Shown here piece after piece: positions 48,380 to 55,347 of a stretch of DNA of 64,000 nucleotides. Below the pieces are notes generated by a model. That model worked only from the letters and a program-made list of their open reading frames with translations. It did no database searches and had not been told where the DNA came from. Within the stretch, counting starts at the first letter, position 1, and every line of letters starts with the position of its first letter. The stretch comes from Pseudomonas tensinigenes. GTDB taxonomy: Bacteria > Pseudomonadota > Gammaproteobacteria > Pseudomonadales > Pseudomonadaceae. The position numbers and the translations under genes were made by a program. The DNA is taken from assembly GCF_014268445.2 (NCBI RefSeq), contig NZ_CP077089.1, positions 5,439,501 to 5,503,500 of the forward strand, read 5' to 3'.

Positions 48380-48428
48380 GGGCAACTCCGATAACAAGAC
48401 TGGGAAAAGATGGCGGGTATCCTACCTG

Positions 48429-48500
48429 AAAAAGATCGCAGCCTTCGGCAGCTCCTACAGGGGATTATGTGTAGGAGCTGCCGAAGGCTGCGATCTTTTG
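48429..48500. repeat. REP pair (TAGGAGCTGCCG class)
   Basis: AAGATCGCAGCCTTCGGCAG and its inverse surround CTCCTACAGGGG. It lies between the divergent apbC and metG starts, so it sits within the promoter region and not 3' of a gene. Confidence 0.88.
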
Positions 48501-48604
48501 ATCTTTGCTGTTTCTCATCCAATGAAACAGGTGCACAGGGTGAAAAATATGCGCCAGCGCTTTATAGTGGCCGACCTCCGTTTCATCAAGTAGCGAAGCC
48601 CCAC

Positions 48605-50656
48605 ATGTCCGAACCACGCAAGATCCTCGTCACCAGCGCCCTGCCCTACGCCAACGGTTCGATTCACCTTGGCCATATGCTGGAATATATCCAGACCGAT
48701 ATGTGGGTGCGCTTCCAGAAGCATCGCGGCAATCAATGCATTTACGTCTGCGCCGACGACGCCCACGGTTCGGCGATCATGCTGCGCGCGGAAAAGGAAG
48801 GCATCACCCCGGAACAACTGATCGCCAATGTGCAGGCTGAACACAGCGCCGACTTTGCCGAGTTCCTGGTTGATTTCGACAACTTCCACTCCACTCACGC
48901 CGAAGAAAACCGTGAGCTGTCGAGCCAGATCTACATCAAGCTGCGTGACGCAGGGCACATCGCCCAACGCTCGATCACCCAGTATTTCGACCCGGAAAAG
49001 AAAATGTTCCTGGCCGACCGCTTCATCAAGGGCACCTGCCCGAAATGCGGCACTGAAGACCAGTACGGCGACAACTGCGAAAAATGCGGCGCGACCTACG
49101 CCCCGACCGACCTGAAGGATCCGAAGTCGGCTATCTCTGGTGCCACCCCGGTGCTCAAGGATTCCCAGCACTTCTTCTTCAAACTGCCAGACTTCCAGCA
49201 AATGCTGCAGACCTGGACCCGCAGCGGCACCCTGCAAGACGCCGTCGCCAACAAGATCGCCGAATGGCTGGACGCCGGCCTGCAACAGTGGGACATCTCC
49301 CGCGATGCGCCGTACTTCGGTTTCGAGATTCCGGGCGAGCCGGGCAAGTATTTCTACGTGTGGCTGGACGCGCCAATCGGCTACATGGCCAGCTTCAAGA
49401 ACCTCTGCGAGCGCACGCCGGAACTGGATTTCGACGCGTTCTGGGGCAAGGACTCCACGGCCGAGCTGTACCACTTCATCGGCAAGGACATCGTCAATTT
49501 CCACGCGCTGTTCTGGCCAGCGATGCTCGAAGGCGCAGGCTACCGCAAGCCGACCGGCATCAATGTGCACGGCTACCTGACCGTCAACGGCCAGAAGATG
49601 TCCAAATCGCGCGGCACCTTCATCAAGGCCCGAACGTATCTGGATCACCTGTCGCCGGAATACCTGCGCTACTACTACGCAGCCAAACTCGGTCGTGGCG
49701 TCGATGACCTCGACCTGAACCTCGAAGACTTCGTGCAGAAGGTCAACTCCGACCTGGTCGGCAAAGTGGTCAACATCGCCAGCCGTTGCGCCGGTTTCAT
49801 CCAGAAAGGTAACGCTGGCCTGCTGGTCGGCACCAATGCCGCGCCAGAACTGACCGAAGCGTTCCTCGCTGCCGCGCCAAGCATTGCCGATGCTTATGAA
49901 GCCCGCGACTTCGCCCGTGCCATGCGTGAAACCATGGCCCTCGCCGACCGCGCCAATGCCTGGATCGCCGACAAGGCGCCGTGGTCGTTGAACAAGCAGG
50001 AAGGCAAGCAGGATGAAGTCCAGGCGATCTGCGCCACCGCCATCAACCTGTTCCGCCAACTGGTGATCTTCCTCAAACCGGTGCTGCCGTTGCTGGCCGC
50101 CGATGCCGAGGCGTTCCTCAACGTCGCCCCGCTGACCTGGAACGACCACACCACCCTGCTGGCCAACCACCAGTTGAACGAATTCAAACCGTTGATGACC
50201 CGCATCGACCCGGTAAAAGTGCAAGCCATGAGCGACGCCTCGAAAGAAGACCTGACCGCCAGCCAGACCGACACCGGTGCTGCTGCGCCTGCCGGCAACG
50301 GCGAACTGGCCAAGGATCCGCTGTCGCCGGAAATCGACTTCGACGCTTTCGCCGCGATCGACCTGCGCGTCGCGCTGATCGTCAAGGCCGAACACGTTGA
50401 GGGCGCAGACAAGCTGCTGCGCCTGACTCTCGATATCGGTGACGAGCAACGCAACGTGTTCTCGGGCATCAAGAGCGCTTACCCGGATCCGTCCAAACTC
50501 GACGGTCGCCTGACCATGATGATCGCCAACCTCAAGCCACGGAAAATGAAGTTCGGTATCTCCGAAGGCATGGTGATGGCGGCCGGCCCTGGCGGTGAAG
50601 AAATCTACCTGCTGAGCCCGGACAGCGGCGCCAAGCCGGGTCAGCGCATCAAGTAA
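48605..50656 (+). CDS. metG: Methionyl-tRNA synthetase
   Basis: The 683-residue enzyme begins at ATG 48605. It has the class I HIGH motif as HLGH ([17 protein letters not shown]), a zinc knuckle ([21 protein letters not shown]) and the KMSKS loop KMSKSRG. A C-terminal OB-fold tRNA-binding domain ([20 protein letters not shown]) follows an Ala/Thr-rich linker. It charges Met-tRNA for translation. A terminator follows. Confidence 0.98.
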
Positions 50657-50787: not shown

Positions 50788-51357
50788 ATGACCGAACTCG
50801 TGCTAACGCTTGTCAGTGCCGCGCTGCTCAACAACTTCGTGTTGCACTGGCCGCTGGGCGTCGATCCGCTGTTGGCGGGCAGTCGTCGCCAGGTGCATGC
50901 GCTGGGACTGGCGACGTTGTGCCTGATGCTGGTCGTCGGTGTACTCGGTTACGCGCTCTGGCATTGGCTGTTGGTGCCATTGCAACTGGAAGCCCTGCAC
51001 CTGTTCGTCTTCCTGCCGCTGAACGTGCTATTGATCGCACCGATCCTGAAACTGTTGGCGCACGGGCTGCCCGCTTGGCCATTCGACGGGTTGTGGGCGC
51101 TGTTGCTGGGCAATGCCGGCGTACTCGGGCTGGCACTGATCAATGTGCAAGACGATCAAGGCCTGTTGCACGCGACGGCTTTGAGCCTCGGTGCCGGGCT
51201 GGGCTTCTGGCTGGTACTGAGCCTGTTCCAGGATTTGCGTGAACGCACGGTCGATAACGATATTCCCCTGCCCTTCCGTGGCCTGCCGATCGATCTGATC
51301 GGCGCCGGACTGATCGCAGTGATTTTTCTCGGATTCAGTGGACTGATCAAAACATGA
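50788..51357 (+). CDS. RnfA-like membrane subunit lacking both cluster cysteines
   Basis: The 189-residue protein aligns end to end with E. coli RsxA ([12 protein letters not shown] for [30 protein letters not shown] near the C-terminus) and has six membrane helices. In RnfA/NqrE family members, Cys in LGLCP and TNCAVLG helps hold a [2Fe-2S] cluster in the membrane. Here they read LGVDP (Asp26) and GNAGVLG (Ala110), so both ligands are gone. It is first in an operon in which all junctions overlap. The substitution suggests a changed or lost electron-transfer step. Confidence 0.9.
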
Positions 51358-52562
51358 GTCTGATTCAACGCATCGATGCCCTTCTGCCGCAGACCCAATG
51401 CGGCAAGTGCGGCCATCCCGGATGCAAGCCGTACGCACAAGGCATCGCCGAGGGCGAGCCGATCAACAAGTGTCCGCCGGGCGGTGAAGAAACCATTGCG
51501 GCGCTGGCCGAGCTGTTGAAAGTGCCGGTGCTGGAACTCGATATCAGTCGCGGTTCGGCGCCGCCGCAGGTTGCCTATATCCGCGAAGCCGAATGCATCG
51601 GCTGCACCAAATGCATTCAGGCCTGTCCGATCGATGCCATCGTCGGCGCGGCAAAATTGATGCACACCGTGATCATCGATGAATGCACCGGCTGCGACCT
51701 GTGCGTCGCCCCATGCCCGGTGGATTGCATTGAAATGCACCCGCTGCCGCTCGGCACGCTGCCGGTGGTGGGAGGTCTGGCCTTCAATCTCGACGAGCAA
51801 CGCGCTCGCGCAGTTAAACGTGATCACGCACGTCAACGCTTTGAGCGACGTAATGACCGTCTTCAACGCGAAGAACAACAGAAACAGGCTGAGCGTGAAG
51901 CCCGAGCGAAACGGGCGGCGCAACCTGAAGTGTCCGCAACCGACCCGGTGCAGGCGGCGCTGGAACGGGTGCGTGCGCAAAAAGCGGCGACCGCAGATGC
52001 GGCGTTGAAGAAAGCCAAGATCGATGTGGCCATGAGCCGTGCACAATTGCACAAGTCGTTGAAAGCTTTTGGCCATCCGCCGACGTTCGAGCAACAGTCG
52101 CAACTGATCGTGCTGCAGCAGCAGTTCGAGGTCGCGGAACACGCTTTGGCAAAACTCGAAACCAGCGCCCCGCCGGCCCCGATCGTCACGGCGCCGGCGA
52201 AAGATGCTGATTTGAAACGGGCGAAGATCCAACTGGCCATGCGCCGCGCCGAACTGAAAAAAGCGCAGACCGCCGAAGCCGCGCCGGAGCAGATCGCTAC
52301 CCTGGAACAGGCTTTGCGCGATGCCGAGCAGGCTTTGCATGATGCTGAAGCGGCCAGCGAGCAGCCTTTGCCTGACCTGGTGCGAGTAGAAAAACGCCCT
52401 ATCGACAGCCACCTTCGCCAGTTGAAAACCGAATTGGCCTACGCTCGCGCTAATCTGAACAAACTCGAACGCCGCGCCGACACCCCGGCCGAAACTCTCG
52501 ACAAGGCCCGCGCCCGCCTGCAAGACGCCGAGCGCCAGGTGCAAGACCATGCCGCCCCTTGA
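51354..52562 (+). CDS. RnfB-like iron-sulfur protein without membrane anchor, with three-repeat C-terminal tail
   Basis: The 402-residue protein overlaps rnfA by 4 bp (ATGA). All RnfB iron-sulfur ligands are kept: C16, C19, C24 and C40 in the N-terminal domain, C81-x2-C84-x2-C87-x3-C91, and C111-x2-C114-x2-C117-x3-C121. The N-terminal membrane helix of normal RnfB is missing; the protein begins [13 protein letters not shown], right where the soluble part starts. From about residue 150 a basic, coiled tail begins. Residues 217-402 hold three repeats about 68 residues apart ([33 protein letters not shown]), resembling the tail of RnfC. No rnfC gene exists here. Confidence 0.88.
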
Positions 52563-53532
52563 GGCCCCGGACGATCGCCTGCAACAGGCGATGAAGCTGG
52601 TACTGCTGGCGACGTTGCCGGGGCTGCTGGCGCTGTTCTGGTTTTACGGTTGGGGCTTGTTGATCAATCTGATCCTGTCCGCCAGCACTGCGTTGGTGGT
52701 CGAGGCCGGTATTACCCGCCTGCGCCGGCAACCGTTGCGGCCCACCCTGAGCGACGGCAGCGCGCTGGTCAGTGCAACGCTGCTTGCCGCAGCCTTGCCG
52801 CCATATTGCCCTTGGTGGCTGACAGTGGTCGCGATCGCTTCGGGCCTGCTGTTTGGCAAACACCTGTACGGCGGCGTAGGCAAAAACCCGTTCAATCCGG
52901 CCATGCTCGGTTTTGCCCTGGCGATCGTGATGTTCTCGCAGCCGATGACGCAGTGGCCTGTCCACGGTATGAGTCTGCTCGACGCCGTCCAGCAGGTATT
53001 CAACCCACGGCAGGCGCCGGATGCCTGGGTTCAGGCCACGGCGCTGGACACCTTGCGCATCAACAAAAGCCTGACCATCGATGAACTCTTCGCCGCCAAC
53101 CCGGCCTTCGGGCAATTCGGCGGACATGGCGTGGAATGGGTGAATCTGGCGTTTCTGGTTGGCGGGCTGTTTTTGCTGCAACGGCGAGTGTTCGGCTGGC
53201 ACGCGCCGGTCGGTATGCTCGCCAGCCTGTTTCTGGTCAGTCTGCTGTGCTGGAATGGCTCAGGCTCCGACTCTCACGGCTCGCCAGTGTTCCACCTGCT
53301 GAGCGGCGCAACCATGCTCGGCGCATTTTTCATCATTACTGAACCGGTGTCCGGCGCCAAAAGCGCGCTCGCCCGCCTGCTTTTCGGTGTTGGCGTCGGG
53401 TTGCTGACTTATCTGATTCGTACGTGGGGTGGTTACCCGGACGGTGTTGCGTTTGCCGTATTGCTGATGAATCTCTGCGTACCGGCACTGGAACGCTTTG
53501 CCGTAAGCCGACAGGCACGGACGACGCCATGA
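52549..53532 (+). CDS. RnfD-like membrane subunit
   Basis: The 327-residue protein overlaps the previous gene by 14 bp. It has helical RnfD features: [35 protein letters not shown], and [20 protein letters not shown] near the end. The stretch [10 protein letters not shown] (Thr164) aligns with the region where RnfD carries covalent FMN on Thr, so the site is likely kept, though flanking residues differ. It normally partners RnfG and RnfA/E. Membrane, electron transfer. Confidence 0.87.
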
Positions 53533-54134
53533 ACCGATTGACGAGTGCACTCACCCTGCTGCTGTTGACCATTGTCGGCGCCGGTACGACGTATCTGGTG
53601 CAACGCAGCAATGCCCCGCAGATTGCCGCCGAGCAACGCCTGATCGACAGCCACAAACTGCTCGATGTGCTCGCAATCAATAGTTACGACAATCAACCGC
53701 TGGAGCAGCCGCTGGCATTGGCGGATATTGTCTTGCCCCATAGCACGCTGACCGGCGGCTATCGCGCGACCCAGGCTGGGCGACCGGTAGCTGTGTTGTT
53801 GCGTAGCCAGTCCCAAGGTTATGCGGGCACTATCGAGTTACTGATCGCCATTGATGCCCAGGGAAAACTGCTGGGTGTGAAGTCCCTCAAGCAAAATGAA
53901 ACTCCAGCGCTCGGCGGGCATTTGGGTGACTGGCCGAATGCCTGGCTTGGGACATTCACCGGCAAATCCAGTGATGAGCCGACGGATACCGGTTGGGCTT
54001 TGAAAAAGGATCAAGGCCAATTTGATCAGATAGCCGGGGCGACGATTACGTCCCGCGCGGCGATCAACGCGATCCATGACGCGTTGCGCTACTTCGATGC
54101 CCATCGAACGGTGCTGCTGGGGAGCGAACCATGA
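53529..54134 (+). CDS. RnfG-like flavoprotein subunit
   Basis: The 201-residue protein starts at ATG 53529, overlapping rnfD by 4 bp. It has a single N-terminal membrane anchor (LTSALTLLLLTIVGAGTTYL), then a periplasmic domain. The flavinylation motif AGATITS (Thr172) is intact. It carries FMN on the periplasmic side in typical Rnf complexes. Retention of this motif argues that the complex is not simply decaying. Confidence 0.88.
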   Translation: MNRLTSALTLLLLTIVGAGTTYLVQRSNAPQIAAEQRLIDSHKLLDVLAINSYDNQPLEQPLALADIVLPHSTLTGGYRATQAGRPVAVLLRSQSQGYAGTIELLIAIDAQGKLLGVKSLKQNETPALGGHLGDWPNAWLGTFTGKSSDEPTDTGWALKKDQGQFDQIAGATITSRAAINAIHDALRYFDAHRTVLLGSEP

Positions 54135-54712
54135 AGCGGATGGCAAAGCTGTCGAACTCATTGACGCTGGTAATCCTGCTGGGCACAACCAGCTCACTGG
54201 CGGGCGCGCTGGTAGCCGCTTTGATGTTCATCACTGTGGCCGGTGCATACGGCTTTTGTATGGCACCTTTGCGATGGCGTACGTCGGGGGCAAGGACATT
54301 GCTGGCGAGTTTGTTGCTCGCGGCTACGTTGACCAGTTGTGCGGAGATCTTCGCGCGACGCTGGTTCCTGCCATGGCACCATGCGTTTGGTCTTTACGCT
54401 GGCCTGATCGGGCTGCAGTGCGTGGTGCTGGAGCACCATGGATTTTTCCGCCAGACACTGACCGAGCGCCTCAGACTCAGCGCCGGATTTGGCGTTTTGA
54501 TGCTGATACTTGCCGGGTTACGAGAGCTCGCGGGCCGCGGAACCCTCGGTCAGGGCCTGTTCGAACACTGGCAAGGTCTGGTCTTATTCAGTGCCGGGTT
54601 GCATTTGGCAACCGTGGTTCCCGGCGCTTTGATTTCGTTGGGGCTGCTGCTCGCAGCTCGTCAGGCGTGGACCGGCTCGAACTCTATTTTCAAGGAAACG
54701 CATCGCCCATGA
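54131..54712 (+). CDS. RnfE-like membrane subunit with one of two cluster cysteines
   Basis: The 193-residue protein overlaps rnfG by 4 bp. Aligned with E. coli RsxE, LLGLCPLLA becomes LLGTTSSLA (Thr20), while the second Cys remains in GLQCVVLEHHGFF (Cys97). With RnfA's losses, only one of four expected [2Fe-2S] ligands survives across the A/E pair. Six hydrophobic segments are present. The nth start overlaps its stop. Confidence 0.83.
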   Translation: MKRMAKLSNSLTLVILLGTTSSLAGALVAALMFITVAGAYGFCMAPLRWRTSGARTLLASLLLAATLTSCAEIFARRWFLPWHHAFGLYAGLIGLQCVVLEHHGFFRQTLTERLRLSAGFGVLMLILAGLRELAGRGTLGQGLFEHWQGLVLFSAGLHLATVVPGALISLGLLLAARQAWTGSNSIFKETHRP

Positions 54713-55347
54713 ATGCCGCAAAACGTCTTGAGATTTTTCGTCGACTGCATGAGGACAACCCCGAGCCGAAAACCGAACTGGCCTATACCTCGCCGTTCGA
54801 ATTGCTGATTGCGGTAATTCTTTCAGCGCAATCGACCGACGTCGGTGTCAACAAAGCGACAGCGAAGCTGTTTCCGGTTGCCAACACGCCTTCAGCGATC
54901 CATGCACTGGGCGTCGAAGGGCTGTCCGAATACATCAAGACCATCGGCCTCTACAACAGCAAGGCCAAGAACGTCATCGAGACCTGCCGCTTGCTGGTCG
55001 AACGCCACGGCGGTGCAGTACCACAAACGCGTGAAGAGCTCGAAGCCTTGCCCGGCGTCGGTCGAAAAACTGCCAATGTGGTACTCAATACAGCTTTTCG
55101 CCAGTTGACCATGGCCGTCGATACGCACATCTTCCGCGTCAGCAACCGGACCGGCATCGCTCCCGGCAAGAACGTTGTCGAAGTGGAAAACAAGCTGATG
55201 AAGTTTGTACCCAGGCAATTCTTGCTCGACTCCCATCACTGGCTGATTCTCCACGGGCGCTATGTGTGTCTGGCCCGCAAGCCGCGGTGCGGTAGCTGCC
55301 GAATTGAAGACTTGTGCGAGTACAAACACAAAACATCGGACGATTGA
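54709..55347 (+). CDS. nth: Endonuclease III
   Basis: The 212-residue DNA glycosylase/AP lyase has the helix-hairpin-helix LPGVGRKTANVVL with catalytic Lys, the catalytic Asp in VDTHIFRVSNR, and a C-terminal [4Fe-4S] loop C-x6-C-x2-C-x5-C (CLARKPRCGSCRIEDLC). It excises oxidised pyrimidines. It starts ATGA-overlapped with the rnfE-like gene and so is translationally linked to it. Confidence 0.97.
   Translation: MNAAKRLEIFRRLHEDNPEPKTELAYTSPFELLIAVILSAQSTDVGVNKATAKLFPVANTPSAIHALGVEGLSEYIKTIGLYNSKAKNVIETCRLLVERHGGAVPQTREELEALPGVGRKTANVVLNTAFRQLTMAVDTHIFRVSNRTGIAPGKNVVEVENKLMKFVPRQFLLDSHHWLILHGRYVCLARKPRCGSCRIEDLCEYKHKTSDD

Follow-up and report, generated by a model that had tools for sequence, protein, structure and literature searches.

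The 64,000-nucleotide window that we analysed (Pseudomonas tensinigenes, contig NZ_CP077089.1, positions 5,439,501 to 5,503,500) carries an rnf-like operon without rnfC, and the changes to the encoded complex go beyond that subunit. Judged from sequence, the catalytic parts of RnfC, the membrane anchor of RnfB, three of the four cysteine ligands of the [2Fe-2S] cluster of RnfA and RnfE, and the RseC protein are lost, while the covalent-flavin sites and ApbE are retained. We consider the chances about even that this operon is a remodelled, lineage-wide descendant of Rnf in which the circuit for reduced nicotinamide adenine dinucleotide (NADH) and ferredoxin was dismantled and the flavin half kept, leaving a separate RnfB and a flavin-only RnfADGE relay. 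Our genus sample comprised 119 genomes (120 requested), each searched for rnfC, rnfD, ApbE, nth, FMN_bind proteins, SoxR and RseC, and in all 119 the locus adjoining nth was read gene by gene; genomes or alignment rows without rnfC at this locus are termed C-less, and those with rnfABCDGE there canonical (n = 16). The genome of the window (G000) is one contig of 6,621,778 bases. Re-reading the locus gave exactly the order rnfA-B-D-G-E-nth, with overlaps of 4, 14, 4, 4 and 4 bp, and the intact reading frames that an initial annotation of this DNA had described; all six genes are open and lie on the + strand, as do their segments and residues given below.

In the Rnf electron path, as laid out in the available portion of PMC12174285, electrons pass from RnfB to the [2Fe-2S] cluster of four RnfA/RnfE cysteines, then to the flavin mononucleotide (FMN) of RnfG, the FMN and riboflavin of RnfD, and RnfC. 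All four cluster cysteines are present in 16/16 canonical rows, and three of them are missing in 70/70 C-less RnfA and 70/70 C-less RnfE rows. RnfA of the window (50788..51357; 189 amino acids [aa]) is an Rnf-Nqr membrane subunit without its two ligands. Its first cluster-cysteine site is occupied by Asp26 (50863..50865; LGVDPL here vs. canonical LGLCPF); cysteine stands there in 16/16 canonical and 0/70 C-less rows, and no C-less row has one within four columns, including about 10 short RnfA rows in which the site falls in a gapped stretch. At the second site, Ala110 (51115..51117; LGNAGVLG here vs. canonical TTNCxVLG), cysteine is found in 16/16 canonical and 0/70 C-less rows, with a cysteine within 4 columns in 1/70. 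The window RnfA was also aligned to solved Rnf chains for the ligand positions. RnfE (54131..54712; 193 aa), a strongly divergent Rnf-Nqr membrane subunit, has Val14 at its first site (54170..54172; canonical LCPLLG, which many C-less relatives replace by LAPLIG or a similar sequence), where cysteine occurs in 0/70 C-less rows, and keeps Cys97 (54419..54421; cysteine in 69/70 C-less rows) as the sole remaining ligand. Another RnfE cysteine, at alignment column 83, is also mostly retained in C-less rows. The membrane [2Fe-2S] site of four RnfA/RnfE cysteines expected of an Rnf complex is thus missing here. Five RnfA residues have become invariant that are not so in canonical rows (Gly40, Trp141 and Leu170 in 70/70; Asp149 and Pro167 in 69/70). 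The residue alignments exclude one locus with several broken frames (L114, genome G034), the RnfE rows exclude L113, whose rnfE frame was not called by our script though it is open on direct reading, and the RnfA and RnfB rows exclude L093 (G076), where a contig end cuts the operon and rnfB lies on another contig.

The homologous core of an Rnf complex, RnfA, RnfD, RnfG and RnfE (ADGE), is encoded in one operon, with RnfA and RnfE matching their NCBIfam subfamilies far below threshold (RnfA: 106 bits, cut-off 229; RnfE: 42 bits, cut-off 213). Both score above the cut-off of the broad Pfam Rnf-Nqr model, and RnfB, RnfD and RnfG each exceed at least one curated NCBIfam cut-off.

No rnfC above cut-off was found in the whole genome of the window, and with it an RnfC bearing an NAD/FMN site and two [4Fe-4S] clusters is missing. 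The best TIGR01945 match (57 bits) is a 465-aa frame that also bears the genome's only Complex1_51K match and that we take to be NuoF. This genome-wide profile search, proposed in the initial annotation, rules out a separate rnfC elsewhere. The same annotation had seen no space for rnfC in the operon, which is only partly true, because the tail of RnfC persists on RnfB: the statement holds for the NADH/FMN and ferredoxin parts and fails for the tail. The extension of RnfB (about residues 148–402, roughly 250 residues; 51795..52559) is homologous to the tail at the C-terminus of canonical Pseudomonas RnfC, and the match runs through to the end (phmmer E values as low as 1.6e-73), clear homology beginning about 20 residues past the last ferredoxin cysteines of RnfC. 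A canonical RnfC tail was matched at E<1e-10 by 86/89 C-less RnfB tails and by 0/89 shuffled tails. Canonical proteins of the genus measure about 190 aa for RnfB and 749–1050 aa, as maximal frames, for RnfC with its long basic tail. Because of this homology we regard it as shown, at the level of sequence, that rnfC lost its NADH/FMN and ferredoxin parts and that its tail became fused to rnfB. A clean deletion of rnfC is rejected, the RnfC tail being found on RnfB.

The window RnfB (51354..52562; 402 aa) is a three-cluster ferredoxin protein fused to this tail and without an anchor. Its iron-sulfur part (residues 1–145; 51354..51788) starts right where the canonical anchor ends. The twelve iron-sulfur cysteines that had been noted as kept are indeed all there, along with one more conserved cysteine (13/13 columns in 58/58 rows). 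A transmembrane anchor was found in 0/89 C-less RnfB proteins, in-frame upstream stretches included: the maximum 19-residue hydropathy within the first 60 aa was at most 1.31 in these 89 proteins vs. 2.74–3.14 in the 16 canonical ones, and within up to 60 in-frame upstream residues plus the first 20 it was at most 1.04. The N-terminal transmembrane helix expected of an Rnf RnfB is therefore missing. The 4-bp rnfA/rnfB overlap is retained in 60/63 pairs, and the best NCBIfam match of the window RnfB is PRK06991, below its cut-off. One locus tallied as an rnfB remnant (L144, genome G065) is yet 1 of the 90 RnfB rows in the alignment.

Next to these losses stands the flavin half. The flavin site that the initial annotation placed in RnfG (53529..54134; 201 aa; a hydrophobic N-terminal stretch followed by an FMN_bind domain) is Thr172 of the AGAT motif (54042..54044); among 71 C-less rows this residue is threonine in 69 and serine in 2. 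The site it thought probable in RnfD (52549..53532; 327 aa) is borne out by Thr164 at the aligned position (53038..53040; of 71 C-less rows, 70 have threonine here and one has serine). RnfD is the membrane subunit with the strongest conservation: it scores 357 bits against an NCBIfam cut-off of 207, is covered by PF03116 over residues 9–322 of 327, and has 125 columns that are at least 93% invariant (71 rows), compared with 38 for RnfA and 12 for RnfE over 70 rows apiece. Putative covalent-flavin sites in RnfG and RnfD are thus accompanied by ApbE in the genome, as expected of Rnf.

Across the genus, ApbE was found in 88/88 genomes that have ADGE, of which 16 are canonical and 72 C-less, but in only 8/31 without it. 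In 8 supported independent contrasts, ApbE and ADGE changed in the same direction 5.1 times on average and in opposite directions 0 times (median p 0.06). FMN_bind proteins follow the same pattern (88/88 genomes with ADGE vs. 1/31 others, the one being G001, which has NQR-like genes). In the genome of the window, no FMN_bind protein other than RnfG was found and ApbE, which has a lipoprotein-like start, is present in one copy, so that this ApbE most probably serves RnfG and RnfD. The apbE gene itself, within the stretch L203 (C1:4697000-4707500), adjoins a gene for a 464-aa pyridine-nucleotide-disulphide oxidoreductase and not rnf; a search for a small gene between the two turned up nothing but overlapping or spurious frames.

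The comparison of operons across pseudomonads that had been suggested revealed that the rnfC-less state is lineage-wide. At the nth locus of the 119 genomes we found ABCDGE in 16, ABDGE in 65 and ADGE in 7; 26 had rnfB only, one had an rnfB remnant and 4 had none of these genes. The ABDGE count takes in L114, L113 and L093, whereas the additional rnf-like loci that G022 and G060 carry (L122 and L123), which differ from this one, stand outside the tally. Open frames were called for every expected gene in 69/72 C-less ADGE loci. The other three are L113, open in rnfE on direct reading, L093, cut by a contig end, and L114, whose breaks extend to metG and nth, so that sequencing is perhaps the cause. 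For the window an assembly or frameshift artefact is ruled out by its open frames and those of its relatives. The seven ADGE genomes have no rnfB elsewhere (best matches: E 7.6e-7 to 1.7e-5, resembling other ferredoxin-type frames). The rnfB-only genomes (L128, L130-L134, L136-L143, L145-L151, L153-L157) carry an RnfC-derived tail at E<1e-10 in 25/26, and ApbE is missing from 19/26. An rnfC above cut-off occurs in 22 genomes, 16 at the nth locus and 6 that are C-less there (G021, G022, G057, G072, G093 and G103) and have a different RnfC-family gene elsewhere (372–567 bits), which adjoins a distant RnfD homologue (L122 in G022).

On a MetG+Nth tree the fewest state changes were 16 for ADGE, 13 for ApbE, 4 for rnfB and 3 for rnfC. 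A single branch of the RnfD tree (support 93, not starred) separates the C-less rows from the rest. Three C-less genomes (G028, locus L108; G054, L112; G013, L113) are nested among rnfC-bearing genomes in the MetG+Nth tree, and their RnfD groups with C-less RnfD at that same branch. Since the two trees place these genomes differently, transfer of the operon into them appears the simpler reading, and independent origins of the C-less state within the rnfC-bearing clade are disfavoured by the RnfD grouping.

We also computed the ratio of nonsynonymous to synonymous substitution rates (dN/dS), as had been proposed, by the pairwise Nei-Gojobori method, taking medians over eight near relatives. All five genes were well below 1, indicating purifying selection (RnfA: 0.15; RnfB: 0.05; RnfD: 0.115; RnfG: 0.117; RnfE: 0.20; nth: 0.017). 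In the canonical comparison, which consists of two small sets, the values were 0.009–0.038 for RnfA, 0.02–0.03 for RnfB, 0.05–0.06 for RnfD, 0.06–0.14 for RnfG and 0.04–0.08 for RnfE. The highest single rnf value was 0.34, for RnfE in an ADGE-only group; the RnfE median of such a group is 0.33. By this measure constraint is clearly present and is weaker than in canonical operons, especially on RnfA and RnfE.

The best reading of these results, in our view, is that the operon consists of two separable modules, a soluble iron-sulfur protein made of RnfB and the RnfC tail, and a membrane flavin module of RnfADGE with ApbE, because RnfB and ADGE are each found alone (rnfB with the tail in 26 genomes, ADGE in 7) and because ApbE follows ADGE and not RnfB. 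ApbE would attach FMN to RnfG and RnfD, and RnfADGE would form a flavin-only relay in which electrons pass between the membrane-embedded flavins of RnfD and the periplasmic FMN of RnfG. The donor to the RnfD flavins could be quinol, which is our guess, or some cytoplasmic donor, and the RnfG FMN would pass electrons to or from a periplasmic partner. RnfA and RnfE would be structural subunits, and RnfB with its tail a separate soluble protein with its own job. That the Rnf pump became an iron-sulfur-free membrane-periplasm relay of this kind, with RnfB freed as a soluble protein, we propose tentatively, at somewhat less than an even chance.

Several observations weigh against this proposal. The relay has no known partner, substrate or phenotype. 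Retention of RnfE Cys97 after its three partner ligands were lost is unexplained by a purely structural role. AlphaFold modelling, with two sequences for each of RnfA and RnfE, reached predicted local distance difference test scores of 46 and 50, too poor for use in a fold search. That 65/72 C-less genomes with ADGE also retain rnfB points to a connection of some kind between the two modules. The independent-contrast test of ApbE is borderline, and eight genomes without ADGE retain ApbE, seven of them without any FMN_bind protein found (G006, G051, G056, G065, G066, G086 and G094); because it persists there, ApbE may have another substrate, or the loss may be recent. In the six C-less genomes with the second RnfC-family gene, several of which also have a second ApbE, the presence of ApbE cannot be credited to ADGE alone; no such gene occurs in the genome of the window. 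Finally, RnfA and RnfE are under clearly weaker constraint than their canonical counterparts, and the state of ADGE changed at least 16 times on the tree, so that the ADGE module is dispensable.

The initial annotation had pictured a maintained, altered complex taking its electrons from something other than NADH, possibly a ferredoxin or a redox sensor such as SoxR. Maintenance and alteration stand, given the lineage-wide distribution, the purifying selection and the missing rnfC; feeding along the usual path finds no support. A complex that kept the RnfB-RnfA/E-RnfG-RnfD route, fed by ferredoxin or serving SoxR instead of NADH, would fit the retained RnfB clusters and flavin sites, and SoxR is present in the window's genome (C1:4769355, 226 bits) and in 67/72 C-less ADGE genomes. 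But this route is unsupported, because it needs an anchored RnfB and the RnfA/RnfE cluster, and neither the anchor (missing in 89/89 proteins) nor three of the four cluster ligands remain. RnfB and ADGE are, besides, each found without the other (26 and 7 genomes). RseC, which the accessible text of PMC11729352 describes as part of the Escherichia coli SoxR-reducing system together with RsxABCDGE and ApbE, gave an RseC_MucC family match in each of the 16 genomes that carry rnfC beside nth, but in 0/103 others; no match was found in the genome of the window, which thus lacks this component of the SoxR-reducing system. SoxR itself also occurs in 17/31 genomes without ADGE and in only 4/16 with full Rnf, and its contrasts with ADGE were not significant. 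We therefore regard retention of the usual route as very improbable, and a SoxR reducer working without NADH is disfavoured by the absence of RseC and the distribution of SoxR.

Our main rival to the flavin-only relay is a short circuit in which RnfB docks by its RnfC tail at the place of RnfC and hands electrons of cytoplasmic ferredoxin straight to the RnfD riboflavin, bypassing the [2Fe-2S] site; the covalent FMNs would then carry them on to the periplasm. The tail on RnfB in 86/89 proteins fits this, as do the retention of rnfB alongside most C-less ADGE operons, the long C-terminal helix of Azotobacter vinelandii RnfC that touches RnfB according to part of a review (PMC12174285), and two other gammaproteobacterial loci (L185, L201) that fuse RnfB to the RnfC ferredoxin domain and tail and have no NADH/FMN domain. 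However, seven ADGE genomes have no rnfB anywhere, which speaks against a general rule, 26 have rnfB with its tail and no ADGE, and the RnfC ferredoxin clusters, the published bridge to the RnfD riboflavin, are gone; we hold the short circuit to be a possibility, though a doubtful one. Slow decay, with the operon a leftover of Rnf of little or no remaining use, would account for the raised dN/dS of RnfA (about 0.15 vs. 0.01–0.04 in canonical operons) and RnfE, the many changes of ADGE on the tree with their stepwise loss states, the rnfB remnant of L144 and the broken frames of L114. Yet no single rnf comparison gave a dN/dS above 0.34, nearly all C-less ADGE loci have every expected frame open, the 12 RnfB cluster cysteines are intact in 58/58 rows, RnfD has its 125 near-invariant columns and RnfA its new invariants, and ApbE accompanies ADGE without exception; given this evidence from selection, ApbE and the new invariants, plain decay is unlikely.

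Compared with canonical Rnf (RnfABCDGE; solved chains 8ahx, 9eri and 7zc6), the window system shares the nth neighbourhood, the RnfA, B, D, G and E homologues, the covalent-flavin sites and ApbE, whereas it lacks the RnfC catalytic parts, the RnfB anchor, RseC and three [2Fe-2S] ligands and carries the RnfC tail on RnfB. With the E. coli Rsx, RseC and ApbE system, as far as the accessible text of PMC11729352 describes it, it has in common the RsxA, B, D, G and E homologues, ApbE and an encoded SoxR; it has no RsxC and no RseC, and its path from RsxB to RsxA/E is broken. The nearest published relatives are the two-subunit flavinylated NQR/RNF-like systems, for which the available portions of PMC8238504 and PMC10979944 propose that a reduced RnfD/RnfG pair supports one-way flow to the extracytosolic side. 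In those portions RnfD is fused to an NAD-binding PF00175 domain and has no flavin threonine, and RnfA and RnfE are missing; the window RnfD, in contrast, keeps its threonine with no PF00175 listed, and RnfA and RnfE remain. Na+-NQR, proposed in an excerpt of PMC4014512 to descend from Rnf through operon duplication and subunit exchange, provides a precedent for an Rnf core with changed input and output subunits. Na+-NQR keeps a four-cysteine cluster and gained NqrF, whereas nothing replaces the lost parts in the window operon; the window's genome has one RnfD/NqrB match only, and neither a second NqrB homologue nor an NQR operon was found in it. The stand-alone RnfB/RsxB beside nth in 26 genomes of the genus shares the missing anchor and the basic tail with the window's RnfB, which still lies within an ADGE operon.

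Searches of the open-licence literature of PubMed Central gave no description of such a dismantled, flavin-keeping Rnf. Current Rnf/NQR models, in the sections of PMC12174285 available to us, make the [2Fe-2S] cluster of RnfA/E (NqrE/D) central to electron transfer and to a conformational switch linked to pumping, and membrane cofactors are described there as strictly conserved. If our reading is true, an Rnf core can work without the buried [2Fe-2S] gate. A large natural family in which most of the cluster ligands, the NADH subunit and the RnfB anchor are lost and both covalent-flavin sites kept is a ready test of what RnfD and RnfG can do alone, and Rnf/Rsx annotations in C-less genomes should not be taken to mean a ferredoxin:NAD pump or a SoxR reducer.

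Reduced forms of Rnf also appeared in a sample of the class, in which rnfD was above cut-off in 117/187 genomes and rnfC in 111. The six with rnfD but no rnfC above cut-off are G000, G189, G201, G223, G241 and G291; the contig of G241 stops at rnfD and is uninformative, and G201 and G291 have divergent rnfD-rnfG pairs. G189 (L185:3085-4053) and G223 (L201), from two other gammaproteobacterial families, encode an anchored RnfB joined in frame to the two-cluster ferredoxin domain and tail of RnfC, without the NADH/FMN domain, which is a less radical form. G189 retains all four RnfA/RnfE cysteines, and G223 retains those of RnfE, its rnfA lying outside the stretch. A scan of named genomes with RnfE gave a single locus, in Pseudomonas crudilactis (91% identical), which is the nearest named relative found. 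The run of overlapping genes is closed by nth (54709..55347), encoding endonuclease III, which adjoins the rnf locus across the genus. Upstream of rnfA lies metG, with a divergent apbC beyond it. The first ATG of metG (48410-50656) gives 748 aa, and the true start probably lies further downstream, because MetG of many relatives measures about 680–710 aa.

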